64,000 bases of DNA from Bradyrhizobiaceae bacterium. GTDB lineage: Bacteria > Pseudomonadota > Alphaproteobacteria > Rhizobiales > Xanthobacteraceae. Positions 22,669-60,737 of this stretch are shown in pieces. The notes below the pieces were generated by a model, which ran no database searches, was not told the origin of the DNA, and saw nothing but the letters and a program-made list of their open reading frames with translations. The position numbers and the translations under genes are program-made. The stretch lies in assembly GCA_003963435.1 (NCBI GenBank), contig RXJC01000071.1:1-64000 (forward strand). Reading direction: 5' to 3'. The first letter of the stretch is position 1; every line of letters begins with the position of its first letter.

Positions 22669-22694
22669 TTCGTCCTGACGGGCGGGAAGGTTAC
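22669..22694 (-). promoter_or_regulatory. ECF (SigF-type) promoter of the buf operon
   Basis: On the minus strand GTAACC (22694-22689) and CGAA (22672-22669) are separated by exactly 16 bases. This is the sequence reported for Caulobacter SigF targets as I recall it. It lies 80 bases upstream of the bufA1 start codon. The same motif with the same spacing occurs at 59004 and 60375, ahead of other ECF-linked genes. Confidence 0.8.
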
Positions 22695-22730
22695 GCTCCC
22701 GCTGCAAAATCCCGCGCCGCGCGACGGCTG

Positions 22731-23456
22731 CTATGGCCCCAGCCACCCGGCATAGAGGGCAGATTGATAGAGAAAATAGAGCGCGGCCACGAAGACGAGT
22801 GCGGCCCCGATTCGCTCGGCCCAAAGCGTGAATGCGCGCGTTTGCCGGAAATGTGCCGCGCTCCCGGCTACCGTGGCGGCGATCACGATCGGAATGCCGC
22901 GGGCGAGGCCGAACGTGGCCATGAGGATGGCGCCCATCAGCGGGCTGGCCGTGGCGGCTGCCGCCGCCACGACCGGGAACAGCATTGGGGTGCAGGCCGG
23001 ACAGGTCGAAAGGCCGAAAGGAAGGCCGAGCAGGTAGCTGCCGATGAAACCCCGGGTCGGCTTTGGGGATGGTGCAAGCGTGGGGAGGACGACGTGAATG
23101 ACGCGCAGGAGCGCCAATCCGACCACAATCAGAACGACCGCGAGCAGGAAATAGGTGAGAGCGAGATAGCGCGCCAGGACCCGCAACACTGCGAAGCCGG
23201 CGAATCCGAATGCGGCGCCGAGCGCGGTGTCAACGGTGGCGATGCCAAGCACGAATCCCAACGCGAGCCACAAGGCCTCGATGCGCCGCGCGCTCGGTGA
23301 CGTGGCCGCCCGGCCCGTTGCGAGGCCGGCGGCGACCGAGATGAGCGGGAATGAGCTCGGCGCGATTCCGACGATCAGACCGGCCAGCGCCACGAGTGCG
23401 ACGGCGTAGGGTGTCAGCGCCGTGATCTCCTGCAGCAATGGCTCGAGGTCAATCAT
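22731..23456 (-). CDS. CcdA-like (DsbD transmembrane family) protein
   Basis: The 241-residue protein has six membrane segments and the CcdA/DsbD-type signature in helix 4, LPFGLSTCPACTPMLFPV. CcdA proteins pass electrons from cytoplasmic thioredoxin across the membrane to periplasmic thiol partners. The start overlaps the end of the P-type ATPase gene by 8 bases, so it is coupled to it. It probably serves periplasmic metal or redox proteins of this island; the partner is unknown. Confidence 0.8.
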   Translation of the reverse strand: MIDLEPLLQEITALTPYAVALVALAGLIVGIAPSSFPLISVAAGLATGRAATSPSARRIEALWLALGFVLGIATVDTALGAAFGFAGFAVLRVLARYLALTYFLLAVVLIVVGLALLRVIHVVLPTLAPSPKPTRGFIGSYLLGLPFGLSTCPACTPMLFPVVAAAAATASPLMGAILMATFGLARGIPIVIAATVAGSAAHFRQTRAFTLWAERIGAALVFVAALYFLYQSALYAGWLGP

Positions 23457-25060
23457 GGCTTGGCTTCACCGGTTTGCCGACGCTCAGGATCGCCTGGAAG
23501 AACAGCGACGGGCGGCCCCACAGCGAGTTGAAGAAAATGGTGGTCACGCTCACCGCCATCGTGACCATCGCCCAGACCGGGTAGAGAAGGCCGGTGGCCG
23601 CGAGCGGCACGCCGACGCCGTTGAACAGGAAGGCGAGCGAAACATTCTGGACCATTTTGCGGTAGGCGCGTCGGCTGATCTCGCGGGCCGTCGCCACCGC
23701 GTCGAGGCGGTTGCTGAGGATGATGATGTCGGCAGAATCGATGGCGATGTCGGTGCCGCCGCCCATCGCGATGCCAACGTCCGCCTGCATCAGAGCCGGC
23801 GCGTCGTTGATGCCGTCGCCGACCATGGCGACGCGGCCGTGCTGCTGGAGCCGGCGGACCAACTCGGCCTTCTCGTCGGGCAGGATGCCGGCGTGGACCT
23901 GATCGATACCGAGTTCGGCCGCGACCCGGTGGGCGTTGCGCTCGTTGTCGCCGGTGATCAGCACGGTTCGGACGCCTGTTTGCTTGAGGGCTGCCACGGT
24001 CCCAGCGGCCTCTGCCCTGACGGTATCGGCCAAGGCGAGAAGGCCGACGGGTTGACCACCGCGGGCAACCGCGATCACCGTCCGCCCGACGCCTTCCAGC
24101 GCCCCGATGCGGCCGGCGAGCCGCCCCAGCTCAACGCCGCTTTCGGCGAGGAAGCGCGGATTGCCGACCAGAACGATCTCACCGCCGACCTGCGCCCGGA
24201 CGCCTTTGCCTGGCACCGCCTCGAACTGCTCGACCTCAGGCGGCGTGATGCGCCGCTCGAAGGCGGCCGCGACGATCGCATCGGCGAGCGGATGCTCAGA
24301 AGCGGCTTCGACTGCGGCGGCGAGCGCGATCAGGGCGTCCTGGGTGATGCCGGTCGATTCGATCTCGACGAGGTGCGGCCGCCCTTCGGTCAGCGTTCCG
24401 GTCTTGTCGAAGGCAACCTGCCTGACCAGCCGATAGCCCTGGAAGGCCTCGCCGGTGCGCATGAGGATGCCGCGCTCGGCAGCTTCACCGGCGCCACGCA
24501 CGATCGACAGTGGTGCGGAAATGCCGATCGCGCAGGGGTAGCCCATGACGAGCACGCTCAGGCCAGCGAACACCGCCCGCTGCAGGTCCGGATCGCTGCC
24601 GAGGAACCACGGGACCGCGACCCAGCCAAGCGTCGCCAGCGCGGCGACCGCAAGCACCGTCGGCGTATAGACGACGAGGATACGGTCGACGAGGTGCAGC
24701 AGGCCCGGCTTCAGCGCGCGGGCGTCCTCGACCTCGCGGGCGACCTGTTGCAGGAAGCTTGCTTCGCCCACGGCGGCAACCCGGACGAGCAGCGTGCCCG
24801 AGCCGTTCATCGATCCGCCGATGACGCTGTCCCCGGCGCTGCGCTCGACCGGGATCGGCTCGCCGGTGACGAGCGCCTGGTCAACCGAGGAATGGCCCTC
24901 GACGACCTCGCCGTCGACGGGCACGCGCTCGCCGGGGCGGATGCGCACGAGATCTCCGATCTTGACAGCCTCGATCCGAACCTCGTGTTCCCGTCTGTCG
25001 CGTAAGACGCGGGCGACGTCCGGCTGCAGATCGAGCAGGCGCTTTACCGCTTGCGAGCTG
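23449..25060 (-). pseudogene. Heavy-metal P-type ATPase, N-terminally deleted
   Basis: From SSQAVKRLLDLQPDVARV onward this is a P1B metal-exporting ATPase: actuator loop with TGEPIPVE, a metal-binding helix with GYPCAIG (Tyr in place of the usual first Cys of CPC), the DKTGTLT phosphorylation site, the P-domain (LITGDNERNA, MVGDGINDAPAL) and the last two membrane helices. Everything before the actuator domain (metal-binding domain and helices 1-4) is missing. Upstream sequence switches to a merR gene in another frame, so a deletion has joined the two. An open frame continues to 25254 but is out-of-frame merR sequence. It is very probably non-functional. Confidence 0.8.
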
Positions 25061-25363
25061 CGCAATCTTGCGGTCGACCTCGCCCCGCTTTGCCACGGCC
25101 TGGGCACGGACGTCGGCGCAATCGGCCGGCGGATCAGCTCGCAGTGAGAGGAGTTCCGCGATCTCGCGCAGGGAAAAGCCGAGTTCCTGCGCGTGCCGGA
25201 TGAAGCGAATGCGCTTGATGACATCGTTATCGTAGGAGCGATAACCGCCGCCACGCGGCCGCGGCGGCTGCTCGATCAGGCCGCGACGTTCGTAAAAGCG
25301 GATGGTCTCGACGCCGACGCCGGCCCGCTGGGCCGCGCGGCTGATGGTCACTCCGATTGTCAT
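25050..25363 (-). pseudogene. MerR-family regulator, 3' end lost
   Basis: The first ~100 residues are a typical MerR DNA-binding domain: GVTISRAAQRAGVGVETIRFYERRGLI, PPRPRGGGYRSYDNDVIKRIRFIRHAQELGFSLREIAELLSL, then C in ADCADVRAQAV and the start of the dimer helix (VDRKIAQLAS). Near 25060 it runs into P-type ATPase sequence out of frame, so the effector-binding end is missing. The intact MerR-type operator at 25384-25415 lies directly upstream. The remnant could still bind DNA but not sense metal. Confidence 0.82.
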
Positions 25364-25383
25364 GGCGACATCACTTCCAACAA

Positions 25384-25415
25384 ATTATGCCCTTCGTACC
25401 TTGGTACGGAGTCAA
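25384..25415 (-). promoter_or_regulatory. MerR-type operator/promoter before the merR fragment
   Basis: On the minus strand TTGACT (-35) and CATAAT (-10) are 20 bases apart, the overlong spacing that MerR regulators correct by bending. Perfect inverted 6-mers CGTACC/GGTACG sit in the spacer (25395-25408). It points at the truncated merR and ATPase remnant. Confidence 0.82.
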
Positions 25416-25464
25416 CAGCAGATCCCAATCGAAGATCCGAGCGCACGACCCGCTACGGGCAAAC

Positions 25465-27720
25465 TCACCCGGCGCAGCAGGACAGCCTGGCGACGTCCTT
25501 GCCGAACGACAATGCCGCGAGCTTCAGGCCCTCGACGGTGGTGAGATACGGAAAGATCGTCTCCGCGAGGTCGTCGACAGTGAGACCCTGCCGGATCGCG
25601 AGCGTCGCGGTCTGGACGCTGTCGGCACCTTCTGGGGCCAGGACATGCGCGCCGAGCAGCCGGCCGCTGCCGGCGTCAGCGACGAGCTTGATGAGCCCGC
25701 GGGTGTCACGCGCAGCGAGTGCGCGCGGCACCTGGTCGAGACCGATCGTCGAGACGTGAACCGCATGTCCGGCGGCGCGCGCCGCGGCCTCGGTCAGGCC
25801 GACGCTCGCCACTTGCGGATCGGTGAATACAATGGCGGGCATAGCTCTGTTGTCGTAACGCAGGCTGTCGCCGTTAAGGGCATTCTTGGCCGCGAGCTTG
25901 GCGCCATAGGCCGCCATGTAGACAAACTGGTCGCGGCCGATGACGTCGCCGGCGGCGTAGATGCCGCTAGCAGTGGTCCGCATGCGATCATCGACGACGA
26001 TGCCGCCCTTCGACGAGACAGCAATCCCGTGCTCGGAAAGCCCAAGACCTTCGATGTTGGGCGTGCGTCCCGTAGCGATCAGCACCTGATCGGCGTCGAT
26101 TGTGATGGTCTGGCCGTCGCATTCAATGTCGAGAGCAATCCCGTGTTCGGTCTTGCGGATTCCGCGGTAGGCGATACCAGGAATGACGGTGATCCCTTCC
26201 TCCTCGAAATATCCTGTCAGCGCCGCGCCGATCTCGGGCTCGGCCTCGGGAAGCAGACGGGACCGACATACGAGCGTCACAGGCACGCCGGCGCGGGCGA
26301 ACATCTGGGCGAGCTCCGCCCCGACATAGCCGCCGCCGATGACAAGCAATGATTGTGGGAGCTGCTCGAGATCGAGCGCCGTCGTGCTGGTCAAATACGG
26401 TACAGTCTCGATACCCGGAATGGCGGGCACTGCTGGCCGCGCACCGGTGGCGATGATGATCTTGCCGGCCGGAATCTGTCCGTCGTCCACTTCGACACTG
26501 CCATTTGCGAGGCGCGCTGCGCCCGCGCGATAGGCGATGCCGTTATAGGCCGACAGCAGGTCGACGTACTTGGCCTGACGCAGCTCGGCAACAAGGGTGT
26601 CCTTCTGCCGGACAGTTCCGCGCCAGTTGGTCAGTTCGGCCTCTGCCGTGATGCCGGCAAAACGGGCTGCCACGCGCGCATTGTGAAGCGTCTCGGCGGC
26701 GCGGATCAGGGTCTTCGACGGCACGCAGCCGATGTTGACGCAGGTGCCGCCGATCGTGCCGCTACCGATGAGCGCCACCTGCGCGCCCTGTTCGGCGGCC
26801 GTAATCGAGGCCGAGAAGCCTGCCGAGCCGGCGCCGATCACGACGAGATCGTAGGCGTCAGCATTGCGACGGTTCGCGCGGTTCGCTATTGCAGTGCTCT
26901 TGGATACGGGATCGATCGATGATCGTGGCGCCGCGTCGAGGCCCGAGAGGCTCGGCCCGAACAGAGCCCGACCGGCTTCCAACCCTTCCTCGATCGACAG
27001 TCGAAATCCCGCCCCGTTTGCTGAACACTCGCGGCGCCAGGCAGCGAGATGGTCGTCCGAACAGAAGAAGGCTGTCATCGCGCACAGTGAGGTCGCCGCG
27101 CACGCGCCGTCATAACGGACGCTTTGCCACATGACGGCTGTCGCCGGCTCGAGGTCGGCCAGCGCTCGTCCTTGGTGCCGGGTCGCAATCCGGATTGGCG
27201 CGCCGCAATGGCGGCAATGCGAGGCAATCGCGATGTCGCGATCGGTCATGGCCCCGATGCCAAGCGCGTCGACCGCGCACATGGCGTTGAGAATACGTCC
27301 GTCCAACGTGACCTGGTGGCCTGTATCGCGGTCGGTGAAGGGATAGGTGCCGACGATCCGCCCGCGGTCAAGAACGACCAGATCGCGGCGGCGGAGCTCT
27401 TCGAGCAGAGGCCGGATGTCCATCTCCCTCAACCCCGCGCGCTGCCCAAGCACGGCCAGGTGAGGTGCTCGTCCGTCTTCGGCGTAGAGCTGGAGCGCTG
27501 CGACACGAACACGGTCCGTCGCGGGATCGTAACCGCTCCACCGATTCAGGACATGATCGGAGCCGACCATAGCGAGCAGAGCCTCTATGACCACAGGCGA
27601 CGTGACCGCCGACCAGTCCGGAAACGTCACGCCGGGCCGCACGGTGTGGCGCGGCAGTGTCGCAGATGTGGATGTTGCAGCCGTGTTCCGGGGTGAAGAA
27701 GATGAGCAGCATTCGTTCAT
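25465..27720 (-). CDS. merA: Fused organomercurial lyase (MerB) - mercuric reductase (MerA)
   Basis: The 751-residue protein joins two mercury-detoxification enzymes. Residues ~25-265 match MerB, which cleaves the C-Hg bond: catalytic pair Cys148 and Asp151 (MCAVD) and the third Cys at 213 (LCAMTAFFC). Residues ~288-751 match MerA, the flavoenzyme reducing Hg(II) to Hg(0): FAD motif VIGAGSAG, redox pair Cys327/Cys332 (GTCVNIGC), NAD(P) motif VIGGGYVGAE, and the C-terminal vicinal pair SCC. The usual N-terminal MerP-like domain of MerA is absent and MerB takes its place. The start at 27720 overlaps the merF stop (ATGA). Intact and likely functional. Confidence 0.92.
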   Translation of the reverse strand: MNECCSSSSPRNTAATSTSATLPRHTVRPGVTFPDWSAVTSPVVIEALLAMVGSDHVLNRWSGYDPATDRVRVAALQLYAEDGRAPHLAVLGQRAGLREMDIRPLLEELRRRDLVVLDRGRIVGTYPFTDRDTGHQVTLDGRILNAMCAVDALGIGAMTDRDIAIASHCRHCGAPIRIATRHQGRALADLEPATAVMWQSVRYDGACAATSLCAMTAFFCSDDHLAAWRRECSANGAGFRLSIEEGLEAGRALFGPSLSGLDAAPRSSIDPVSKSTAIANRANRRNADAYDLVVIGAGSAGFSASITAAEQGAQVALIGSGTIGGTCVNIGCVPSKTLIRAAETLHNARVAARFAGITAEAELTNWRGTVRQKDTLVAELRQAKYVDLLSAYNGIAYRAGAARLANGSVEVDDGQIPAGKIIIATGARPAVPAIPGIETVPYLTSTTALDLEQLPQSLLVIGGGYVGAELAQMFARAGVPVTLVCRSRLLPEAEPEIGAALTGYFEEEGITVIPGIAYRGIRKTEHGIALDIECDGQTITIDADQVLIATGRTPNIEGLGLSEHGIAVSSKGGIVVDDRMRTTASGIYAAGDVIGRDQFVYMAAYGAKLAAKNALNGDSLRYDNRAMPAIVFTDPQVASVGLTEAAARAAGHAVHVSTIGLDQVPRALAARDTRGLIKLVADAGSGRLLGAHVLAPEGADSVQTATLAIRQGLTVDDLAETIFPYLTTVEGLKLAALSFGKDVARLSCCAG

Positions 27721-27950
27721 GGCTTCACGCCTTCCTTGGGGTCCACTGTTTTTGTCGGACGATGATGGATGGCCCACGCGACAAGAATGAAGCCCGCGGC
27801 TGTCAGTGGCAGCAACACCAAACCTGCACCCGCCAGCCGCGCGCCAAGACCGGCCAAGGGCAGACCGACGGAGAGGAGCGGCATCGCGCAGCAGATCACA
27901 GCGAGGACGCCGCCAACCGCGCTTGCACGGATCAGGGCGCGGTCGCTCAT
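27717..27950 (-). CDS. merF: MerF-like mercury transporter
   Basis: The 77-residue protein has two membrane helices and the vicinal cysteine pair in helix 1 (GVLAVICCAMPLLSV), as in MerF inner-membrane mercury importers. The second Cys pair expected near the C-terminus is absent (the tail is HHRPTKTVDPKEG). The start at 27950 lies one base after the merP stop. It feeds Hg(II) to the reductase encoded next. Confidence 0.8.
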   Translation of the reverse strand: MSDRALIRASAVGGVLAVICCAMPLLSVGLPLAGLGARLAGAGLVLLPLTAAGFILVAWAIHHRPTKTVDPKEGVKP

Positions 27951-27951
27951 C

Positions 27952-28245
27952 TCAACTGCCTTGCCGCACCGGATGGGCCGGATAGCCGGCATTCATGCTG
28001 GCGGCCGCGATGGCGTCTGGGTTCGTCTTCGCGTCATCGAAAGCCACGGTCGCGGTCTTCGCCTGGAACGACACAGCCACCTTTGCGACGCCGGGAACCG
28101 CCGCCATCGAGCTCTTCACGATGAACGGACACGAAGCGCAGGTCATATGGTCGACCGCGAAGGTGATGGTGCGTTCACCTGCCCAGGCAGTCGGGGCGAC
28201 CATCACCGAGCCGATCAGGGCGAGCGCGCTCAAATACTTGTTCAT
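27952..28245 (-). CDS. merP: Periplasmic mercury-binding protein MerP
   Basis: The 97-residue protein has a signal peptide ending in AWAG and a single heavy-metal-associated domain with the MTCASC motif (Cys36/Cys39). MerP captures periplasmic Hg(II) and passes it to MerT or MerF. It lies between merT and merF in the usual order. Confidence 0.95.
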   Translation of the reverse strand: MNKYLSALALIGSVMVAPTAWAGERTITFAVDHMTCASCPFIVKSSMAAVPGVAKVAVSFQAKTATVAFDDAKTNPDAIAAASMNAGYPAHPVRQGS

Positions 28246-28266
28246 AGGTGGGGTCTCCTCTTGGCG

Positions 28267-28695
28267 TCAGGCGCGAAGCAACAGCGGGGCGACGTAGTCG
28301 AAGGCGAAGGCGGCCACCACAAGCACTGTCGCGATCCAGAGCGCGAGTTGGACGAGGCGGCTGGGAATGCGGCGTGCACAGCCGGCACCCTCATCGGCGC
28401 AGGCTTGCCTTGGCTTCCAGTAGACGAGGTAAAAGCCGTAGCCGAGGACGCCGGCTGTTCCCGCCACGAAGAGCCGCTTGTAAGGCGCGAGCGCCGTCAG
28501 ATTGCCAATCCAGGCGCCGCCGATGCCAAGGCTGAACAGGATGAGCGGGATGATGCAGCAGCTCGAGGCGGCGAGTGCGCCGAGAATGCCGCCGACAGCG
28601 ACCAGGCGCTGTCGACCGCCCTCGTTCCGCTCGGCCCTCGCGAGCACCCTCGTGGCGGGCGCCGTATCTGCTGGTCCGGATTGCGATGCAGCCAT
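28267..28695 (-). CDS. merT: Mercuric transport protein MerT
   Basis: The 142-residue membrane protein has three helices, the vicinal Cys pair in the first (ALAASSCCIIPLILF) and the cytoplasmic-loop pair spread as CADEGAGC, as in MerT. It imports Hg(II) for reduction. The N-terminus is about 30 residues longer than typical MerT. It is the first gene of the mer operon, just downstream of the mer operator. Confidence 0.93.
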   Translation of the reverse strand: MAASQSGPADTAPATRVLARAERNEGGRQRLVAVGGILGALAASSCCIIPLILFSLGIGGAWIGNLTALAPYKRLFVAGTAGVLGYGFYLVYWKPRQACADEGAGCARRIPSRLVQLALWIATVLVVAAFAFDYVAPLLLRA

Positions 28696-28734
28696 GTACG
28701 ACCTCGCCTTCTTGCCGAAATCTCAACTGCGGCG

Positions 28735-28766
28735 TAGCGTGCAGTCTGTAGCGACTACAGGGTCAA
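28735..28766 (-). promoter_or_regulatory. mer operator/promoter between merT and merR
   Basis: On the minus strand TTGACC (28766-28761) and ACGCTA (28740-28735) are 20 bases apart. The spacer holds the perfect inverted repeat CTGTAG-CGA-CTACAG (28746-28760), the binding site of MerR. It serves merTPF-merBA and overlaps the divergent merR promoter region. Confidence 0.82.
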
Positions 28767-28779
28767 GAGGGTTTTGTTG

Positions 28780-29202
28780 ATGCGCGATCACGCGGTGGTG
28801 AAGGCTATGCAGCGGGCCGAGCTTGCCCAGCGCACGGGCTGCAATCTGGAGACGGTGCGCTATTACGAGAAGGTCGGTGTCCTGCCCGCGCCGCCGCGCA
28901 CGGCGGGCGGCTACCGCAGCTATGACACCATGCATGAACGGCGGCTTCGCTTCGCGCTCAGGGCGCGCGAGCTTGGCTTCTCGCTCGATGAAATCCGCGA
29001 ACTGCTGCGCCTTGTCGACGAGCGCGACCAGCCCTGCGCCGAGGCTCGCGCTGTCGCCGTCGCGCATCTCGACGACGTGCGAACGAAGATCGCCGATCTC
29101 AAGCGGATGGAACGGGTGCTCAAGGACGTGGTCGCGCGATGTGCTGACGGTACCCTGCCGGAATGCCCGCTGATCGAGACGCTGTTTGCCGGACGCAATT
29201 AG
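28780..29202 (+). CDS. merR: Mercury-responsive regulator MerR
   Basis: The 140-residue regulator has an N-terminal helix-turn-helix (LAQRTGCNLETVRYYEKVGVL, GGYRSYDTMHERRLRFALRARELGFSLDEIRELL), a dimerisation helix, and the three cysteines that bind Hg(II) across the dimer (QPCAEA, ARCADG, PECPLIE). The ATG at 28780 is preferred; two in-frame TTG codons precede it. It is divergent from merT over a shared operator. Confidence 0.95.
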   Translation: MRDHAVVKAMQRAELAQRTGCNLETVRYYEKVGVLPAPPRTAGGYRSYDTMHERRLRFALRARELGFSLDEIRELLRLVDERDQPCAEARAVAVAHLDDVRTKIADLKRMERVLKDVVARCADGTLPECPLIETLFAGRN

Positions 29203-47111: not shown

Positions 47112-47525
47112 TTACAATGATCGCGATCTGCCGACCCGCACGATCGTGCCCGCAGCGATTTGCAGCGTGACTCCCAATAACCAACCCAACCCGATAACAA
47201 TCGACCAAACGTGACGCGCATCGACATCAAAGATGATGTAGTAGACCGATAATAGCGCAGCTACCGGTGCGAGAAATGTTCCGACGGCACTCAATGTTTC
47301 GACCGGAGTGGCCTCAGAGCGTCGTGCCGGAAGATCGATTCCCATATAGAAACCGATCGCACCGGATACCATCATGGCAAGTACGAACTCGGTTGAAGAC
47401 AGGCTTTCGACGCCCGCTTTCGCCAAATGTGCCGCGACAAACAATCCGGAGGACGCTCCCGCCGCGGCGAGACCGGTTCGTGCCATCACTTCGGCAAAGT
47501 TTCGTGTTTGAGAACCGATAGCCAT
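47112..47525 (-). CDS. Hypothetical membrane protein
   Basis: The 137-residue product has about four hydrophobic segments (LAAAGASSGLFVAAHLAKAG, FVLAMMVSGAIGFYMGI, LSAVGTFLAPVAALLSVYYIIF, HVWSIVIGLGWLLGVTLQIAAG). I do not recognise the family. The start at 47525 has AAGGAAA upstream. It stands alone between decayed sequences. Confidence 0.6.
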   Translation of the reverse strand: MAIGSQTRNFAEVMARTGLAAAGASSGLFVAAHLAKAGVESLSSTEFVLAMMVSGAIGFYMGIDLPARRSEATPVETLSAVGTFLAPVAALLSVYYIIFDVDARHVWSIVIGLGWLLGVTLQIAAGTIVRVGRSRSL

Positions 47526-47879
47526 CACTAATTTCCTTTTCGATTTACAAACCATGGGCTTTCGAGCAACCCTTGCCTGCTACTGTTGTCTCGTGACCGT
47601 AACTCTGGGCCGTTTGATAAGGGGCGCAGCATTACTTATGAATTCGGAACACGAAGCCGGGAGGTTACAAGCCGCGAAGACATTTCTTGGCAATCCCGGT
47701 AAGGGATTGGTCACTTGGCGCAACAAGCGACCGGTTCTGTGAGGCACAGTCGGCTACTCATTTGAAAAGTCGTCAACCCGGCGCATATTGCAGATACGTT
47801 CTGCGAGTTGTCGCGCAGGCCGCGGAGCTGCGACTGCAGCGGGGCGGATCGAATGACCCGATCGGTCACGTAATCCTAA

Positions 47880-48258: not shown

Positions 48259-49083
48259 CTAGGTGGCAGTTTCAGCCGTCGACACCGCCTTGGGCAGATC
48301 CCCGCCCGCCGCGACACGGACCGTGAACACGAACGGCGAGTCCACCCCGCCGGCGATGATCTCGTTGTCCCCAAGGCGGAGCGGCGCTTCATCGGTGCCG
48401 AAGTGGTCGCCGATGGGACGGCCGTTTACGGTCGTCCCGAGGTGGCTGTGCAGGTCGCGTATGAACAAACACCCCTGACGTTGCATGATCGCGAAGTGGT
48501 CGCGCGACAGCCGAAGCGGTTCGCGGTCCAGGAGCTGAAGGTCCACCTTGAGCGCCCCCGACGGTTCGTGCGGGAGCGACGCGCGCCCAACCAGATATGG
48601 CGTCCTTTCGATCTCGACGACCTCGGCAAGCTGGTGACGCAGCTCGGGTGACGCCGCTGTGAGCGTGATGCCGGACGCGGGCTGGTGAGCGCCCAGTCCG
48701 CTGTCTCTCGGAACCGGCGGCCCGCCCGGTTGCTCATCGCTCACGATACGGTCTTCGGCATCGTGCAGGCGTTGACTGAGCCGGACGATAAGATCGCGCG
48801 CGGCCTCGGGCGCGCGGACGACCTCCTCGAGGAAGACCGCGACCGGGATGATCTCAGCTTCGACATCAGTCACCGCGCGCGCGGCGACACTGTGCGCAGA
48901 CCGATGCTCGATCGCGCCCATTTCGCCGATAAACTGGCCGGCGTCCACGACGCCAAGGACGATGGCGGCGGCGTGGCGCTCACGTATGATTTCGATGCGG
49001 CCTTTCAGGATCTTCAGCACACAGTCAATCGGATCGCCTTCGCGAAAGAGAAGATCGCCCTGGTGGAAAGACTTTCTGGTCAT
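48259..49083 (-). CDS. Cyclic-nucleotide-binding domain plus FHA domain protein
   Basis: The 274-residue protein starts with a cNMP-binding domain (FHQGDLLFREGDPIDCVLKILKGRIEI, LGVVDAGQFIGEMGAI) and ends with an FHA phosphopeptide-binding domain (LVGRASLP, LSRDHFAIMQRQGCLFIRDLHSHLGTTVNGRPIG, LRLGDNEIIAGG). No DNA-binding helix-turn-helix is visible, so it is not a CRP-type regulator itself. It may link a nucleotide signal to phosphorylated partners. A perfect FNR/FixK box lies 53 bases upstream. Confidence 0.85.
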   Translation of the reverse strand: MTRKSFHQGDLLFREGDPIDCVLKILKGRIEIIRERHAAAIVLGVVDAGQFIGEMGAIEHRSAHSVAARAVTDVEAEIIPVAVFLEEVVRAPEAARDLIVRLSQRLHDAEDRIVSDEQPGGPPVPRDSGLGAHQPASGITLTAASPELRHQLAEVVEIERTPYLVGRASLPHEPSGALKVDLQLLDREPLRLSRDHFAIMQRQGCLFIRDLHSHLGTTVNGRPIGDHFGTDEAPLRLGDNEIIAGGVDSPFVFTVRVAAGGDLPKAVSTAETAT

Positions 49084-52667: not shown

Positions 52668-52670
52668 ACG

Positions 52671-53675: not shown

Positions 53676-53700
53676 CGAACTGGAGCACAAGAGCCCCGTC

Positions 53701-54483
53701 ATGGAAATCGTCGATCTTAGGGGACGCAAAGGCCTGGTCGTTGGCATTGCCAACGAGCACAGCCTGGCCTGGGCCGCCGCGCAGCACTTCCGGAGTGCCG
53801 GCGCCGAGCTCGCCGTCACCTATCGCAACGACAAGGCCAGGCCCTATGTCGAGCCGCTAGCGCGGACCGTCGAGGCGCCGATCTTCCTCCCCTGCAATGT
53901 CGCGACTGCGGGTCAGATCGAGGCCGTGTTCGCCACCATCAAGGACACCTGGGGCCGACTGGACTTCCTGTTTCATGCAGTCGCCTGGGCCCGCAAGGAT
54001 GCCCTTCTCGGCCGCCTGACCGATTGCTCCGCAGAACGCTTCGCGGAGTCGATGCTCGTGTCCTGCCACTCGTTCATCCGCATGGCGCAGCTGGCGGAGC
54101 CGCTGATGGACAAGGGTGGGAGCCTGATGACGCTAAGCTTCTACGGCGCCGAGAAGGTCGTCGACCACTACAACGTGATGGGCCCTGTCAAAGCTGCGTT
54201 GGAGGCGTCAGTGCGCTATCTCGCCCACGAGCTCGGGCCCAAACGAATCCGCGTCAACGCGATTTCCGCTGGCGCCGTTGCGACGCGTGCGGCCTCCGGC
54301 ATCGAACATTTCGATGAGCTCTTGAACGAGACCGCTCGTAAGGCACCGCTACGCCGCACGGTCGAGTCCGACGAAGTCGGCCGGACAGCGCTCTTGATCG
54401 CCAGCGACTATACGACAGCCATCACCGGCGAGGTGCTGCACGTCGACGGCGGTTTCCATATCGAAGGCATGGTGTTCCACTGA
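53701..54483 (+). CDS. fabI: Enoyl-ACP reductase FabI-like
   Basis: The 260-residue short-chain reductase has the FabI-type nucleotide motif (GLVVGIANEHSLAWAAA), the NADH-binding DFLFHAVAWA segment, the active-site Y-x6-K spread in YNVMGPVKAALEASVRYLA, and IRVNAISAGAVATRAASGI near the substrate loop. It reduces enoyl thioesters in fatty-acid synthesis. Its place after ackA and pta suggests a special role, such as reductive disposal of electrons or lipid remodelling, and it is likely a second copy. Confidence 0.92.
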   Translation: MEIVDLRGRKGLVVGIANEHSLAWAAAQHFRSAGAELAVTYRNDKARPYVEPLARTVEAPIFLPCNVATAGQIEAVFATIKDTWGRLDFLFHAVAWARKDALLGRLTDCSAERFAESMLVSCHSFIRMAQLAEPLMDKGGSLMTLSFYGAEKVVDHYNVMGPVKAALEASVRYLAHELGPKRIRVNAISAGAVATRAASGIEHFDELLNETARKAPLRRTVESDEVGRTALLIASDYTTAITGEVLHVDGGFHIEGMVFH

Positions 54484-54496
54484 GGAGCGAACGGCA

Positions 54497-54688
54497 ATGG
54501 CAATGCAAGTTACCGATCCCGTCTGCGACATGACGATCGACAGTGAACAGGCTGCTGCACGCGAGGTCTGGAAAGGGCAAACCTACTATTTCTGTTCCAA
54601 ATCGTGCCAGGAAAAATTCCGGGCAGCCCCTGACCGGTACGTCAAGAAGGCGGACGATCCGGGTGCTCACGGCTCGCACAACCGCTGA
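54497..54688 (+). CDS. YHS-domain protein
   Basis: The 63-residue protein is a bare YHS domain (VTDPVCDMTIDSEQA, YYFCSKSCQEKFRAAPDRYV), a small metal-binding fold found with copper ATPases and toluene-type oxygenases. The three Cys and the Tyr/Phe positions are intact. It follows fabI after 13 bases and precedes metal-transport genes. Confidence 0.9.
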   Translation: MAMQVTDPVCDMTIDSEQAAAREVWKGQTYYFCSKSCQEKFRAAPDRYVKKADDPGAHGSHNR

Positions 54689-54924
54689 GGATCGCGGACC
54701 GAGTACGCCGAAGTGGATCAGCGCGCGCCCGATTGACGCATGGCCAACGACTGTGCGGCCGGCAACCGCGCAGGGCCTGATTCCTCCCGTGTCGCTGACC
54801 CGATACGAGTCCGGCGAGGATCGAATTGATGTGGGTTAAAGACCTGCTCCACGAGGTCGCCTAGTGAAGTGCGATGCTATCGTGCCGGCAATTCCGCAGG
54901 CCGGTGACCAATAAGGAGTAGACA

Positions 54925-55128
54925 ATGTCCGCAAAACCCACGACCGACCCGAAAGTTCCGACCAGTGCCACCAGCGCTGCCAAGCACGGTTGCTGCGGAA
55001 GTGAGGCCGCGGCCCAGTCCCAAATCGACGCCACGACCGATCACGAGCATCGCGAGCACGCGGTGCCGTCCAAGGCCGCCGAGTCCTCCTGCTGCTGCGG
55101 AGGCAAAGACGGTCGAACTGCGACCTGA
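54925..55128 (+). CDS. Small Cys-rich protein, hypothetical metal binder
   Basis: The 67-residue product has no signal peptide and carries two cysteine clusters (HGCCGSE near residue 22 and SSCCCGG near residue 56) with a His-containing middle (DHEHREH). No family is recognised. It lies 51 bases before the P-type ATPase on the same strand with AAGGAG upstream, so it may hand metal to that pump. Confidence 0.6.
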   Translation: MSAKPTTDPKVPTSATSAAKHGCCGSEAAAQSQIDATTDHEHREHAVPSKAAESSCCCGGKDGRTAT

Positions 55129-55179
55129 AGTTCGCAGCGCCGGTCGTGGTGACGCTATTAAGAGTGTGAGGAGCGAGAA

Positions 55180-57630
55180 ATGAAAACAGCCACTCTTGAT
55201 GTGGGCGGCATGTTGTCGATGCTCGACTACCAAGGCGTCGAGAAGCAGCTTGGCCGGATCGCCGGCGTCCGGCGCGCGACCGCCAGCATCGCCTCGAACA
55301 GCGCGACGGTCGAGTATGACGAGACCGTCACCAGCTTGGCGGCGCTCAAGGACAAGATCAACGAGTGCGGCTTCCACTGCACCGGCGAGATCGTCCCCAA
55401 GCACGTCTGCGAACCACATGCTGGGCATGCCCAGGGCATCCACGCCGGTCGTGGGGCAGCGATGAAGCCGGCTGAATCGAAGCCTGGCGCACCGGCGGTG
55501 CAGGTAGCTCACGCGCACCATGTTCATACCGCGCATGCGCCGGCGGGAGCGCCCACTGCGGTAGCGCCGGCCATGCCGATGTCGCATGACATGGCGCACG
55601 AGATGGGCCACGGCGCCGGCATGGATATGGGGGATATGGTGCGCGACATGCGCAACCGTTTCTGGATCAGCCTGGTCTTCACTATACCGATCTTCGTCCT
55701 CCAGCCGATGGGCATGGACTTCATCCGTGTGAAGCCCCCCTTTGGGCTCGATCTCAATTTCGTGCTGTTTTTGCTGGCGAGCGCCGCCATCCTCTACCCA
55801 GTCTGGCCGTTCGTCGTTGCTGCCGTCCGAGCGCTGCGCAACGGCATTCTCAACATGGCCGTGCTGGTCATCCTCAGCGTCGGCACCGGTTATCTTTTCA
55901 GCGTCGGCGCTACCTTCTTTTTCAAGGGCGAGCAGTTTTACGAGGCTGCGGCCATTCTTCTTGTGTTCATCCTGCTCGGCCATTGGCTGGAGATGCGGGC
56001 GAGGGCCGGGGCGTCGGAAGCCATCCGTGCGCTGATGGACCTCGCGCCGCCGACAGCGATGGTTCTGCGCGACGGCCGCGAGGTCGAGGTCCCCACCGCC
56101 GAGGTTCTCGCAGGCGATACCGTTGTGATCCGTCCCGGCAACAAGATTCCGGTCGATGGCACGATCGTCGACGGCACGTCGCAGGTCGATGAATCAATGC
56201 TGACCGGCGAATCGATGCCGGTCGGCAAGAAACCCGGCGACACGGTGATTGGGGCGACGATCAACAAGAGCGGCACCTTCCGCTACACCGCCACCAAGGT
56301 CGGAGCGGATACGGCGTTGGCGCAGATCGTCAAGCTGGTGCAGGAGGCGCAGAACTCCAAGGCGCCGGCGCAGTTGCTCGCCGATCGCGCCTCGCAATGG
56401 CTTGTCCTCGCGGCAGCAGTGGTTGGCGTGCTCACCTTTGTCGCCTGGTTTTGGTGGCTGGGACAGCCTCTGCTGTTCGCGATGACGCTGATGATTACGG
56501 TGTTCGTCATTGCCTGTCCGGACGCGCTGGGCCTCGCTACGCCGATGGCCGTGATGGTCGGCACGGGGCTCGGCGCGATGAATGGAATTTTGTTCAAGAA
56601 TGCCGGAGCCCTGGAGGATGCGACGAAGCTCGACGTCGTCGTCATGGACAAGACCGGAACGCTGACATTGGGCCAGCCGCAGGTGGTAGACGTCGTAACC
56701 GGCAAAGGCCAGACCCAAGAAAGGGTGCTGACGACGGCGGCGGCGGTCGAGCAGGGATCCGACCACCCCCTTGCCCAGGCCATCGTGCGACGCACGGAAG
56801 GTCTCGTCATTCCGGTGCAGAAGGGCTTCGAAAACATCGAGGGTATGGGCGCGCGCGCCGAGATCGACGGTGAGCCCGTATTTCTCGGCAATCGCCGTCT
56901 GATGGATGCGCAGAAACTGGACCTTAGCGAGTTATCGCCGGACGCGCAGCGGCTGCAAGGTGCCGGCCGCACGGTGGTCCATGTGGCGCGCGCCGGCAAA
57001 GTGATCGGGCTCATCGCCATTGCCGATGCGCCGCGGCCGAACGCGGCAGCCGCCGTTGCCAAGCTGCGCGAGCGTGGGGTGCAGGTCGCCATGCTCACTG
57101 GCGACAACGCCGGTACTGCCCAGCGCATTGCCCAGGAACTCGGCGTCGAGATCGTGCTGGCGGACGTGCTGCCCGGACAGAAAGCCGCCAAGATCAAGGA
57201 GTTGCAAGGTCAGGGCAAGAAGGTCGGAATGGTTGGAGACGGCGTCAACGATGCCCCGGCGCTCACCCAGGCGGATGTCGGCTTCGCGATCGGTGCGGGC
57301 ACGGACGTCGCCATCGATAGCGCCGACGTGGTGCTGATGAAAAGCGATCCCTACGACGTCGTTGGCGCGATCGAGCTGTCGCGGGCAACTCTGCGCAAGA
57401 TGCACCAGAACCTGTGGTGGGCGGTCGGGTATAATGTGATCGCGTTCCCACTCGCGGCGGGTGTGCTCTATCCCTTCACGCTCAGTCCCGAGATCGCTGC
57501 CCTTGCCATGTCCGGCAGCTCCGCAATCGTCGCCATCAATGCGCTGATGCTCAAGCGCACCAAGCTCGCCGGTATCACACGGCGCAGCACGCTCCAGCCG
57601 ACGTTGCGCCCAGCTCACGCGGCGAGCTGA
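55180..57630 (+). CDS. P1B-type metal ATPase with CPD motif
   Basis: The 816-residue pump exports a transition metal. It has a degenerate N-terminal metal-associated domain (GGMLSML where GMTCxxC is expected), a His/Met-rich linker ([33 protein letters not shown]), actuator TGESMPVG, the membrane metal site ACPDALG (Cys446-Pro-Asp448), DKTGT (Asp490), SDHPLA and [13 protein letters not shown] in place of CPC or CPH points to an unusual metal preference. The neighbouring YHS and Cys-rich proteins fit copper, which remains an inference. Confidence 0.9.
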
Positions 57631-57644
57631 TCGGGGAGGTTCGG

Positions 57645-58910
57645 TTGCAGAGCCTGACTTGGTACGCGCTCTCCGCTGTGCTGCTCGCAATGTTCGCGAT
57701 CACCGTCGGCTATGGTATCGTGCTGCCGATCCTGCCGTTCCTGATTGAGCGCCTCGCCGGCACAACGGACGCCACTACCCAATCGTGGCATACCGGCCTG
57801 CTGACGGGAACCTATATCCTTGCCATTTTCCTGTTCGCTCCCTTATGGGGGAAGCTATCGGACCGGTGGGAGCGGCGGCCGGTGCTTCTTCTGGGACTCG
57901 CAGGCTTCGCCGCGACAGTAGCGCTATTCTCGTTCGCCGAGAGCCTGCCGCTGCTCTACCTCGACCGCTTCCTCGGCGGCGTTTTCGCGGCCGCGATTAC
58001 ACCGGTTGCCTACGCGCTCGTCGGCGATTATGCGCCGTCGAAGGAATGGCGGGCCCACCGCTTCGCCTTGATCAATGTCGCGGGCACGGCGGGGTTCTTT
58101 GTTGGGCCGCTGCTGGGAGGCCTCGTCTTGCGTGCAGGGCGCGAACTCTTCGTCGGAACGCCGGAGGGCGCCTTTTCTACGCCGCTCCTTGCGGCATCCA
58201 GCCTCGCGGTTCTGGCCGCGTTGGCGGTCTGGGGTCTCGTACCGCGTACCGCGCGGCACGAGGCAAGTCAGCTGTCCTCGACCGAAAAGCGACGCAACCA
58301 GCCGGTCATGGTACGTCTATGGGGCATCGCGTTCGTGACGGCTGTAGCCATCGGCGCATTCGAGGTCGGACTATCGTTACGCGGCAAGCAAATCCTTGGG
58401 ATGGATGCCTCTCGCATCGGCATGATGTTTGCCGAGTGCAGTCTTGTGATGTTCGTCGTTCAGGCGCTTGTATTTTCGCCGCTCATCAAGCCAGAGGTCA
58501 CGCGCTGGTTTGTTACGCCAGGACTTGCCATCCTGGCGATCGGTCTGGTGGTCGTTCCGTTTACCAGTACCTCCATCACGATGAGCATCGCCGTGGTATT
58601 GGTCGCCGCAAGCGCCGGCATCCTGTCGCCAATCGTCACTTACTGGATATCGCTTGGCGCCGGCGAGACGCAAGGCGCGGATCTCGGGCGTGCCACTGCG
58701 GCGGCAAGCCTCGGACAGGCTATCGGTTCCGCCGCCGGCGGCCTCTTGTTCGACCTTCCAATCCTGCCTGGTGCTGCTTTCACCGTCACCGCGATCGTTG
58801 TCCTGGCGGGTCTCGGTGCGAGTGTGGGGCTGCCCCAGCTTGTGATGTCGCCTCAGACAGCGGTCCGACCGAAGGTTGCCGAGCCGCCCTGCGCATTGCG
58901 CGGGCCTTGA
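57645..58910 (+). CDS. MFS transporter (12-helix, TetA-like)
   Basis: The 421-residue protein has twelve membrane helices with the MFS loop motif A (LWGKLSDRWERRPVLLLG) after helix 2 and AVAYALVGDY-like PVAYALVGDYAPSKEWRAHRFALINVAGTAGFFVGP in helix 4-5, as in drug/H+ antiporters. It uses a TTG start with GGGGAGG six bases upstream and follows the ATPase after 14 bases. The substrate is unknown; the position suggests a metal-chelate or a compound made under metal stress. Confidence 0.85.
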   Translation: MQSLTWYALSAVLLAMFAITVGYGIVLPILPFLIERLAGTTDATTQSWHTGLLTGTYILAIFLFAPLWGKLSDRWERRPVLLLGLAGFAATVALFSFAESLPLLYLDRFLGGVFAAAITPVAYALVGDYAPSKEWRAHRFALINVAGTAGFFVGPLLGGLVLRAGRELFVGTPEGAFSTPLLAASSLAVLAALAVWGLVPRTARHEASQLSSTEKRRNQPVMVRLWGIAFVTAVAIGAFEVGLSLRGKQILGMDASRIGMMFAECSLVMFVVQALVFSPLIKPEVTRWFVTPGLAILAIGLVVVPFTSTSITMSIAVVLVAASAGILSPIVTYWISLGAGETQGADLGRATAAASLGQAIGSAAGGLLFDLPILPGAAFTVTAIVVLAGLGASVGLPQLVMSPQTAVRPKVAEPPCALRGP

Positions 58911-59003
58911 TGCATGTGCGACATGCGGTCTGGCTGTGCAGAATAGCAAAGCTCGGCCGGTGTCTCCAACACGCCGCGCGTGCCCTCAATCGCTCCCGGG
59001 GCT

Positions 59004-59029
59004 GTAACCAACCGCCGGTTTCGTGCGAA
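59004..59029 (+). promoter_or_regulatory. ECF (SigF-type) promoter of the second ECF/NrsF pair
   Basis: GTAACC (59004-59009) and CGAA (59026-59029) are separated by 16 bases, 17 bases upstream of the chosen sigma gene start (59047). Motif and spacing are the same as those ahead of bufA1. This suggests autoregulation. Confidence 0.75.
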
Positions 59030-59046
59030 TAATAGAGATAGTGGAC

Positions 59047-59604
59047 ATGATAGCGAACGAGGCCGAGCTTAAAGCGCTCATGCTGGCGAGCCTTAACGGC
59101 GATGCGGCCGCGCATCGAAGCCTGCTGAACCAGCTGAGCGGTCGTTTGCGGGCTTATTACAGGGGCAAGCTTTCGCGCCTGGGGCGCGGCGCGACCGAGG
59201 CGGAGGATCTGGTGCAGGAGGCGTTGATTGCAATCCATACGCGGCGGCACACCTATGATCCGTCGGAGCCGCTGACGCCCTGGGTGCATGCCATCGCGCG
59301 TTACAAGCTCATCGATCACCTCCGCCAAACCCGGGCTTCAATGGCGGATGCTCCGATCGATGAAGCCGACGAGGTGCTGGCGCAAGACGATCATATTGGC
59401 GTGGAAAGTGCGTACGACATTCACAGGCTCTTGAACCAACTGCCGGAGAAGATGCGGCGCGCAATCCAGGCCGTGAAGCTTGATGGACTGAGTGTCGGCG
59501 AGACGGCGACCCGGTACGGTGTGACGGAATCGGCCGTCAAGGTCAGTGTGCATCGGGGGCTCAAGGCACTGGCCGCCTCGATCGCGCGGGAGAAGAAGGC
59601 ATGA
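59047..59604 (+). CDS. ECF sigma factor (second SigF-like copy)
   Basis: The 185-residue protein has region 2 (AAHRSLLNQLSGRLRAYYRGKL, EAEDLVQEALIAIHTRRHTYDPSEPLTPWVHAIARYKLIDHLRQ) and region 4 (LPEKMRRAIQAVKLDGLSVGETATRYGVTESAVKVSVHRGLKAL). The YDPSxPxxPW block is shared with the first ECF at 19.3 kb. The start is taken as ATG 59047; 59023 is an alternative but overlaps the promoter. It overlaps the NrsF-type gene by 4 bases. Confidence 0.9.
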   Translation: MIANEAELKALMLASLNGDAAAHRSLLNQLSGRLRAYYRGKLSRLGRGATEAEDLVQEALIAIHTRRHTYDPSEPLTPWVHAIARYKLIDHLRQTRASMADAPIDEADEVLAQDDHIGVESAYDIHRLLNQLPEKMRRAIQAVKLDGLSVGETATRYGVTESAVKVSVHRGLKALAASIAREKKA

Positions 59605-60242
59605 AGACGGATGACTTGATCGCCATGCTCAGCACAAATGTGGAGCAGGTCAACCGTCGACGGCTCGTGCAAATAGTCGCCGCGGCCATCGCGATCGGCG
59701 CCGCGCTGGTTATCGCTGCGGTGTTCGTCGTCCTTGGCATCCGTCCGGACCTGATGAAGACAGGTGCGCTTGCGTTCCTGTTCTTGAAGCTCGTCTTTAC
59801 ACTAACGGTCCTTGTCCCGGCGTCGGTGTTCTTGATCAGGCTTGCCCGGCCGGGTGGGGAGCGCAAAGCGCGTGTCGCCCTGCTCGTGCTGCCATTCGTT
59901 GGCATTATTGTTCTTGCCGCGGTCAGCCTTGCATTCACGCCGAGTTCGCATTGGGCGACGGTCGCCCTGGGGGACCAGTGGATCGAATGCCTCCTCTCCA
60001 TTCCGATCATTGCCATCGTGCCGTTTGCCGTGATCGTCTGGGCCGTGCGGCAGACGGCCCCCACTGACCTGACCCGGGCGGGAGCTCTCGCTGGTCTGGT
60101 CGCCGGGACTGTCAGCGCCATCGGCTACGCACTTCATTGCACCGACGACAGTCTGCCGTTCATTGCGCTTTGGTACGGAGGCACCATTGCGCTGTGTACC
60201 TTTGCCGGCGCCAAACTGGGGCCACGGCTCCTGCGCTGGTAG
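59601..60242 (+). CDS. nrsF: NrsF/DUF1109-family anti-sigma factor (second copy)
   Basis: The 213-residue protein has six membrane helices and the same signature order as the first copy: KTDDLIAMLSTNVEQV, the GIRPDLM loop, QWIECLLSIP, and YALHCTDDSLPFIALWYGGTIALCTFAG. It should hold the upstream ECF sigma at the membrane. The Cys pair in the CTDD and LCTF regions may be a sensing site. The gene is coupled to the sigma gene by a 4-base overlap. Confidence 0.9.
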   Translation: MKTDDLIAMLSTNVEQVNRRRLVQIVAAAIAIGAALVIAAVFVVLGIRPDLMKTGALAFLFLKLVFTLTVLVPASVFLIRLARPGGERKARVALLVLPFVGIIVLAAVSLAFTPSSHWATVALGDQWIECLLSIPIIAIVPFAVIVWAVRQTAPTDLTRAGALAGLVAGTVSAIGYALHCTDDSLPFIALWYGGTIALCTFAGAKLGPRLLRW

Positions 60243-60374
60243 GCGAGCTCGGCTCGGTCGATCCGAAAGTGCTCATTGTAAGGGGAAACGTCGGTCGACG
60301 TCTTGACCATGTTTCGTCAGACCAACCGCATCAATTGAGCTTCACATTACATCCATCATCACGCCGCGCACCCT

Positions 60375-60400
60375 GTAACCGACTAGCGGCTTTCTCCGAA
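60375..60400 (+). promoter_or_regulatory. ECF (SigF-type) promoter of the small exported protein
   Basis: GTAACC (60375-60380) and CGAA (60397-60400) are 16 bases apart, identical in form to the sites at 22669 and 59004. It stands 67 bases upstream of the ATG at 60468. Confidence 0.75.
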
Positions 60401-60467
60401 CTCATAAGTAGGCGCCAATCAAAGCGCTCTTTGAGATAGCGCAATCACGCGCAACGGGAGAAATACA

Positions 60468-60737
60468 ATGCCGGGATCGAAAACGGGTATCGTTCTTGCT
60501 CTTGCGTTTGCAATGGCGGGTACTGCGCCGACTTTTGCCGGGACCAATGGGACCGATTATCTCAACTACACGGGTGCGGCACGGCGCGGTCAGTCGAGCC
60601 TGCAGGCGCCGCAGCTGCGTGCCGAGCGGCAGGAAGCGTGGGCGAACGCTCGAGCGGCGCTGCCCCGCACGGCACCTGAAGCAGGCGACAGGCCGACCCC
60701 GCATCGTTACTACGGCGGTCCGAAATCGATGCATTGA
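60468..60737 (+). CDS. Small exported protein of the SigF-type regulon
   Basis: The 89-residue product has a signal peptide (cleavage near FAGT) and a mature part of ~65 residues without Cys: TNGTDYLNYTGAARRGQSSL, RAERQEAWANARAAL, ending RYYGGPKSMH. I know no family. GGGAG precedes the ATG. It has its own GTAACC-N16-CGAA promoter next to the second ECF/NrsF pair, so it is probably induced by the same stress as the bufferin operon. The following 60738-61090 has no supported gene. Confidence 0.7.
   Translation: MPGSKTGIVLALAFAMAGTAPTFAGTNGTDYLNYTGAARRGQSSLQAPQLRAERQEAWANARAALPRTAPEAGDRPTPHRYYGGPKSMH

Follow-up and report, generated by a model that had tools for sequence, protein, structure and literature searches.

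The 64,000-nucleotide stretch analysed here (the window; positions 1 to 64,000 of contig RXJC01000071.1, assembly GCA_003963435.1, from a Bradyrhizobiaceae bacterium) carries two genes for extracytoplasmic function (ECF) sigma factors, ECF-a and ECF-b, each next to a gene for an anti-sigma factor of the NrsF type, and four exact copies of the promoter motif GTAACC-N16-CGAA. The original prediction, made from the sequence alone, had assigned such sites to one SigF-type regulon; we consider it probable, if far from settled, that the four sites serve two sister ECF-sigma/NrsF-type circuits instead, possibly with some overlap. In circuit A, the 22694 site would serve a row of genes, bufA1-bufB-bufC-DoxX-ECF-a-NrsF-a, whose arrangement suggests co-transcription. 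ECF-a and its membrane anti-sigma factor would then be the last products of the operon that they control, which would amount to an in-line positive feedback with a built-in brake. The targets of ECF-b in circuit B would be the ECF-b operon itself (site at 59004), the gene of a small exported protein of a family referred to below as RYxGGPK (60375), and the gene of a 147-aa membrane protein (47668). Further targets of circuit B would lie on a second contig of the same genome, C512: a paralogous ECF/NrsF pair, another RYxGGPK gene, a thioredoxin-reductase-like gene and, less surely, the gene of a His-rich exported protein. Either NrsF protein would hold its sigma factor at the membrane and free it upon periplasmic stress, with copper, judging from the target genes, as the likeliest signal.

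Four promoter sites and their statistics

The four exact copies lie at 22669-22694 (minus strand), 47643-47668 (minus), 59004-59029 (plus) and 60375-60400 (plus). Three of them (22694-22669, 59004-59029 and 60375-60400) had been reported at exactly these positions, and the one at 47643-47668 had been overlooked. The motif had been attributed to Caulobacter SigF, and rightly so: the published SigF site is GTAACC-N16-CGAA, with support from 5' rapid amplification of cDNA ends and from reporter fusions (PMC3511200; here and below, published systems are described from excerpts of the papers cited). No exact match was found in 100 dinucleotide shuffles. The whole genome (7.31 Mb in 724 contigs) contains 14 exact copies, compared with 5 of the reversed pattern. 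From N12 to N20, the genome counts, taken from the listed matches, are 2, 1, 9, 3, 14, 11, 3, 4, and 10. The counts for N14, N17, and N20 are raised, which fits codon phase, and those for N13 and N19, the phase-mates of N16, reach only 1 and 4. With the phase-mates as background, the chance of at least four sites in 64 kb is about 1e-8, and with the average over the eight spacings other than N16 it is 2e-7, which bears out the earlier claim that exact spacing would be improbable by chance.

The window sites also stand at promoter distance from plausible targets, as had been proposed. Eight of the 14 genomic copies lie 0 to about 320 bp ahead of candidate genes, four of them on the contig of the window (C172) and four on C512. 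The six others lie inside open reading frames (ORFs) of 212 to 1,004 aa, all of them off these two contigs, and for one of these (contig C570) a third-position G+C of 0.51 makes the coding character less sure. Seven of the eight gene-placed sites are themselves overlapped by ORFs of 62 to 415 aa, which, the ORFs around sites being mechanical calls and not gene-finder predictions, are taken as spurious or as having over-long starts. If the motif is extended to GTAAC-N17-CGAANTCAT, perfect copies in 7.3 Mb number four, every one among the eight placed sites. The assembly is 89.5% complete with 4.25% contamination, and contigs C172 and C512 are similar in G+C. The window sites are very probably real promoters.

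Pooled counts weigh against this. When N12 to N20 are taken together, the reversed pattern is commoner in this genome than the motif (111 versus 57), and the N15/16 total in eight relatives lies below that of the reversed control (128 versus 198). An explanation in which the matches are due to chance and the genes run from other promoters would find its support in these totals, but is highly improbable given the probabilities above and the conservation of the motif ahead of RYxGGPK genes in 19 of 29 genomes. Since the reversed pattern outnumbers the motif in pooled counts, the signal sits in the N16 spacing and in the position before homologous genes, and a plain genome-wide motif count was dropped as proof.

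Two sigma/anti-sigma pairs and two promoter flavours

Both ECF factors have NrsF-type partners, as had been proposed. ECF-a (19315..19965, minus strand; PF04542/PF08281) is encoded by the second-last gene of the co-directional bufferin row, next to NrsF-a (18647..19318, minus), and ECF-b (59047..59604, plus; Pfam sigma domains) is encoded next to NrsF-b (59601..60242, plus). For ECF-b, a start at 59047 or later is likelier because the listed start at 59023 overlaps the -10 element. The two sigma factors share 31% identity. In a tree of 38 rows, ECF-a and six relatives form one clade (100/100, branch 1.19) and ECF-b and twelve relatives another (99/98), with L083, a relative from a Caulobacter sp. 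metagenome-assembled genome (MAG), outside both. By sequence, ECF-a and ECF-b are not one SigF but members of two distinct pairs.

The anti-sigma factors differ as well. NrsF-a and NrsF-b score 114 and 212 bits, respectively, against PF06532 (cut-off 26.8), and 31 and 96 bits against the NCBIfam NrsF equivalog, whose cut-off is 300 bits; the predicted models of both (predicted local distance difference test, pLDDT, 76 and 90.5, respectively) contain six long helices. In the NrsF-b-type set, Cys130 and Cys180 are invariant (47/47 proteins). In the NrsF-a set, drawn from six genomes including that of the window, Cys130 and Cys110 are each found in 7/7 proteins, and the second, sensory Cys of the loop between transmembrane helices 5 and 6 (TM5-TM6) in 0/7. 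Both sets were first cleared of identical duplicates, of proteins longer than 330 aa, and of those whose best score did not exceed 60 bits. The predicted models place Cys110 towards the end of TM3 and Cys130 close to where TM4 begins, both on the side of the membrane where, in NrsF-b, the TM5-TM6 loop carries Cys180; the side is assigned by helix counting and, for NrsF-a, on the model of pLDDT 76. NrsF-b would signal via Cys130 and Cys180, as do the studied proteins of Caulobacter and Bradyrhizobium. Because NrsF-a has no equivalent of Cys180, whose Bradyrhizobium japonicum counterpart is required for sigma release (PMC3420878), it must work differently, perhaps through a redox use of the invariant Cys110 beside Cys130, in which case Cys110 may have taken over sensing.

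In relatives, bufA promoters differ from ECF-b and small-protein promoters in recurrent features around the common core. Two flavours, A and B, were defined from sites of other genomes, namely 8 bufA sites and 39 sites ahead of ECF-b (21) or small-protein (18) genes. Identical duplicates were dropped, and both sets were collected by their GTAACC...CGAA core, so that they are silent on genes whose promoters lack it. The spacing is N16 in 39/39 ECF-b and RYxGGPK sites and N15 in 5/8 bufA sites, so the spacing of exactly 16 claimed originally is true of class B sites only and was rejected as a general rule. Base 7 is T in 7/8 bufA sites and G or A in 37/39 of the others, and after each of the 18 small-protein sites comes C/T-T-C/T-A/C-T; circuit-B promoters can be written GTAACC[GA], N16, mostly followed by CTCAT. 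Leave-one-out typing places 12/12 sites in A and 36/39 in B, the misses being L079, L080, and L118.

Cross-gene training is the fairer comparison, because orthologous promoters share descent. With bufA and ECF-b sites as training sets, 9/9 circuit-A sites ahead of other genes are nearer to A and 18/18 RYxGGPK sites fall into B; with bufA and RYxGGPK sites, the same 9/9 are again nearer to A. These nine are all the exact-core sites of five ECF-a-linked regions and their extensions, a thioredoxin-DsbD-like site in L191 not being included. A background was built from 36 loci, of which 34 could be scored (no site was readable in L220 and L228) and 32 were left after removal of two training sites; 3/32 pass 4 bits for either flavour, namely L204 and L212 (both beside an RYxGGPK gene of genome G236) and L224 (on the bufferin contig of G040), and one background locus, L222, is the same site as the circuit-A test site L189:8529 (-0.5 bits). 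Scored against background, the window site of bufA1 types as A (A +5.4, B -7.5 bits), those of the RYxGGPK gene (B +14.5) and of the 147-aa protein gene (B +6.5, A -4.4) type as B, and that of ECF-b as neither (B -1.6, A -7.0). Both flavours can coexist, as in G236, where TTTC/N15 is found at bufA and thioredoxin-DsbD-like genes, and [AG]/N16 at ECF-b and RYxGGPK.

Several observations weigh against two separate circuits. The nine circuit-A test sites come from three genomes (G236, G040, and G043), six of them being three orthologous pairs, and only 5/9 pass 4 bits for A over background (the others are L187:2436, 0.8; L189:8529, -0.5; L230:4227, -1.5; and L231:13436, 1.4); it is for these reasons that confidence in two circuits is limited. 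When bufA and RYxGGPK sites are used for training, just 13/21 ECF-b sites score B, the more distant ECF-b relatives L079 and L080 carry the TTT feature, and the ECF-b site of the window and the ECF site of C512 (-3.6 bits) match neither flavour. On the side of circuit A, no ECF-a was seen at the loci of 3/8 bufA training sites (L188 ends with its contig, L191 has none, and L193 has a divergent ECF gene of another clade), the window bufA1 site has N16, the less frequent spacing of its class, and two of the nine bufA loci closest to that of the window, L190 and L191, have bufA-B-C-DoxX without ECF-a (none within 10 kb in L191). In addition, the proposal for Cys110 draws on conservation and on a model of pLDDT 76, Caulobacter sigF was reported as not strongly autoregulated (PMC3511200), and a shared -35/-10 core could let either sigma factor read all four sites.

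This last point leads to the one-regulon alternative, close to the original proposal, in which either sigma factor reads every GTAACC-N16-CGAA site, the flavours reflect local history, and two sensors feed a single copper/oxidant response. It is supported by -35 and -10 cores that do not differ among the four window sites, by the unclear flavour of both ECF-b-type autoregulatory sites of this genome and, in B. japonicum, by the finding that loss of the anti-sigma factor OsrA also raised the paralogue ecfS, a hint of cross-talk (PMC3420878). It is nonetheless rather unlikely in view of the 31% identity between ECF-a and ECF-b and of flavours that are common to non-homologous promoters within a circuit, separate between circuits, and both present in one genome, G236. 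From the original proposal, the shared motif and the NrsF partners stand, whereas the separate clades, low identity and two flavours argue for two circuits, with the assignment of each site to one sigma factor being deduced from these comparisons. Co-induction of bufferin and the small protein could still occur, either through a copper signal common to both circuits or through cross-reading of the shared core by the two sigma factors.

The genes of the two proposed circuits

The circuit-A site of the window (22669..22694, minus strand; GTAACCTTCC, without CTCAT) precedes bufA1 (22242..22625, minus; PF10048, 82.5 bits), which encodes a bufferin-1 precursor (DUF2282) whose start, by reading, is likely at 22589. 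It is followed on the same strand by bufB (21292..22179; PF05114, 358 bits), for an MNIO enzyme (MbnB_TglH_ChrH), bufC (20520..21398; PF09836, 92 bits), for a DUF2063 partner protein, and a gene for a DoxX-family membrane protein (20020..20523; PF07681, 63 bits), ahead of the ECF-a and NrsF-a genes. The components of a bufferin-1 cluster (DUF2282 precursor, MNIO, DUF2063, and DoxX) are thus all recognised by Pfam, and the precursor has four Cys by reading. The order bufA-B-C-DoxX-ECFa-NrsFa is kept in 6/9 of the closest bufA loci with flanks (L184, L185, L186, L187, L189, and L192, in six genomes), and another of these nine (L184-L192), L188, is cut off by its contig end. Eight of the nine closest loci (71-86% identity) carry GTAACC-N15/16-CGAA, and the bufA operon promoter of relatives is mostly GTAACCTTT, usually with N15. 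Seven more distant loci (L193-L199) have an ECF-NrsF pair of another clade, divergent from bufA, and promoters with GTAACG in five cases and GTAACC in two. Over 29 bufA loci (70 genomes matched), the exact N16 motif is found upstream in 3/29 and a relaxed motif in 20/29.

Other circuit-A sites of other genomes precede genes for a periplasmic thioredoxin and a DsbD-like membrane protein, as well as other genes, and a site in the genome of the window (C203:1510; A +4.0 bits) likewise lies ahead of thioredoxin/DsbD-like genes; the names thioredoxin, DsbD, MsrA, DUF2933, DUF427, and DUF1223 given to neighbours in other genomes come from reading or recall. The GTAACCTTC site at L189:8529 (minus strand, genome G043) stands ahead of an ORF whose product looks exported and contains several NPCAPK units, and which may be a Cys-repeat precursor. 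Upstream of the bufferin row, the window encodes a P-type ATPase near a sigma pair (23449-25254, minus), with no GTAACC-N16-CGAA site directly ahead, and a 770-aa ORF (25465-27777, minus) with an alkylmercury lyase domain (MerB) and a pyridine-nucleotide-disulphide oxidoreductase domain, resembling a MerB-MerA fusion.

In circuit B, the site at 59004..59029 (plus strand) stands directly ahead of ECF-b and is likely an autoregulatory promoter, and that at 60375..60400 (plus), followed by CTCATAAGTA, precedes the gene for an 89-aa protein (60468..60737, plus), predicted to be exported from its signal-like N-terminus by reading. Among the 15 ECF-b relatives from the named collection, the exact motif precedes the ECF gene in 8 and the small-protein gene in 6, four of 19 candidate loci (L087-L090, 27-29% identity) having been set aside as non-relatives. 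The four sites on C512 lie ahead of a paralogous ECF gene whose product is 70% identical to ECF-b (C512:50758; B -3.6 bits), a small exported protein ending in RYQGGPKGR (C512:52030; B +8.8), a thioredoxin-reductase-like gene (Pyr_redox_2; C512:75277; B +6.2), and, at about 320 bp, a His-rich exported ORF with no Pfam match (C512:40027; B +2.5).

The small protein belongs to a family, RYxGGPK, with a signal-like N-terminus, a D near the cleavage site, a D-x-x-YWP element, a C-terminal RYxGGPK, and a location after ECF-NrsF genes. Although the window protein has no match in Pfam or NCBIfam, has lost the YWP element, and matches the C512 copy as a single sequence at just E 0.125, it is recovered by a profile of seven relatives built without it, and its alignment and synteny also place it in the family as a divergent member. 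C-terminal GGPK is found in 122/122 aligned sequences, made up of the two genome copies and the 120 best database members; beyond these, it is replaced by GGPR in P0003 and missing from two more paralogues, encoded on C1. A 10-row alignment matches no fewer than 1,524 database proteins, the scoring having covered just a part of the candidates, and the family is found in 31/248 genomes of the taxonomic family, that of the window included. In the loci of other genomes (29 loci, the best match per genome; 30 other genomes matched), the exact motif lies within 350 bp upstream in 19/29 and a relaxed one in 24/29, with 36 exact motifs in 92 kb.

Further circuit-B sites point to metal handling. In G169 and G188, exact sites near circuit-B genes precede CusF (PF11604) and YtkA-like (PF13115) proteins, and downstream of the window RYxGGPK gene lie a Cys/Met/His-rich exported ORF by reading (61028-61474, plus) and, by family search, genes for a YtkA-like protein (61530-61988, plus) and a CusB-like resistance-nodulation-division (RND) adaptor (62085-63527, plus). 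Together with the bufferin of circuit A, these CusF, YtkA-like, and CusB-like genes suggest copper as the signal of both circuits. On the other side of the ECF-b/NrsF-b pair, a P-type ATPase with a heavy-metal domain is encoded near the sigma genes (55180-57630, plus), with no GTAACC-N16-CGAA directly ahead. In two MAGs, exact sites are found before an exported MsrA by reading (L079, about 6190, and L080, about 4920), and also before a DUF1223-like protein in L079 and a Met-rich peptide in L080 (by reading). The genome has seven NrsF-family genes, of which those on C2, C447, and C600 are preceded by GTAACA-N15/16-CGAA instead. On C2 and C447 (G000), the NrsF gene is separated by about 14 and 9 kb, respectively, from a bufA-type operon, whose promoter has GTAACA in the first case and GTAACG in the second, and no ECF gene was recognised near these NrsF genes by motif scan.

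The fourth window site (47643..47668, minus strand), followed by TTCATAAGTA (flavour B), ends 87 bp ahead of the gene for the 147-aa membrane protein (47112..47555, minus), to which searches of Pfam and NCBIfam gave no match. The protein has 510 database relatives at E <= 0.01 (62 genomes matched), but, as a point against its place in circuit B, neither an exact nor a relaxed motif occurs within 350 bp ahead of those whose loci were compared (0/29), and 98 kb of these loci, the matched comparison to the RYxGGPK loci, contain 0 exact motifs. A conserved target is thereby ruled out, and the gene is a candidate new, non-conserved target of circuit B. An alternative that accepts the sites at 59004, 60375, and 22694 as real and sees that at 47668 as a chance or decayed copy before an unrelated membrane-protein gene takes its support from the same 0/29; it is unlikely, as this site is one of the four GTAAC-N17-CGAANTCAT copies of the genome, which lie exclusively on C172 and C512, and scores +6.5 bits for B, a level at which just 3/32 background sites pass even 4 bits for either flavour, all three beside circuit genes. 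A neighbouring ORF (48259-49083, minus) carries cyclic-nucleotide-binding and FHA domains.

Relation to known systems and meaning

The closest parallel is the SigF-NrsF system (ECF16) of Caulobacter crescentus, which shares with the window the tGTAACC-N16-CGAA promoter, a six-helix NrsF-family anti-sigma factor, and a bufferin-type DoxX operon (DUF2282-DUF692-DUF2063-DoxX) among its targets (PMC3511200, PMC3420878). Its regulon also includes CC2905-2907 and CC2748/msrPQ and is induced by chromate, cadmium, and copper (PMC3511200, PMC8224329), the sigF mutant being copper-sensitive (PMC8224329). The window differs from it by two ECF/NrsF pairs, by sigma and anti-sigma genes as the last genes of the bufferin operon, and by two promoter flavours. 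Whereas control by Caulobacter NrsF involves C131 and C181 (PMC3511200), NrsF-b has C130/C180 and NrsF-a lacks the second cysteine, and none of the eight placed sites, as far as read, precedes an msrPQ-like gene. Other reports extend the group (PMC8315932, PMC6180224), and two cases call for caution in transferring the Caulobacter picture: in Cupriavidus metallidurans, no direct evidence links the bufferin-type gig operon with RpoQ, the sigma factor encoded next to it (PMC10304878), and in Sinorhizobium meliloti the RpoE7 target tested was not induced by H2O2, cadmium, or chromate (PMC6180224).

B. japonicum EcfF-OsrA, another ECF16 system, shares an autoregulated ECF/NrsF pair, a GTAAC promoter, and the Cys129/Cys179 logic, and its targets include a thioredoxin/DsbD-type pair, as in circuit A (PMC3420878). 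Its consensus, GTAAC[g,a]-N14-15-[c,t]CG[t,a] (PMC3420878), differs from the GTAACC of the window pairs, and the C2, C447, and C600 promoters of the same genome (GTAACA, N15/16) are closer to it. Buf1 clusters with DUF2282, MNIO, DUF2063, DoxX, and sigma/NrsF genes have already been reported (PMC12452194), but their in-line order, the promoter flavour, and the NrsF-a cysteine change are not described in the excerpts of that paper. The MrpX and BcrX peptides are also small exported proteins encoded beside sigF-nrsF or bcrS-abcS, with BcrX under an ECF16 promoter (PMC4623255, PMC8315932). These peptides are methionine-rich, whereas RYxGGPK proteins, with 0.5% Met and Cys in 0/120 of the best members (after residue 20), are set apart by composition, and the Met content rules out a role as an MrpX-like methionine sink. 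No description of an in-line sigma circuit or of the RYxGGPK family was found in excerpts of the open-access literature, a search that did not extend to subscription papers.

A more specific proposal, which we hold tentatively and at a little under even confidence, is that ECF-a/NrsF-a is a separate type with a moved redox switch, the loop Cys lost and Cys110 gained at the end of TM3, with a GTAACCTTTC-N15 promoter and a place as the last genes of a bufferin operon driven by ECF-a. One genome would thus hold two insulated copper-defence circuits, A with bufferin and periplasmic thioredoxin/DsbD, and B with RYxGGPK, CusF, and YtkA-type proteins. From one promoter motif, the analysis arrives at a model of periplasmic metal defence with two circuits, which can be tested and in which the residues and bases that would separate the circuits are named, and it offers a first regulatory home for a widespread, unnamed family of small exported proteins. 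It also suggests a way in which the sensing cysteine of an anti-sigma family may have shifted, a point relevant to stress sensing by NrsF-type proteins.

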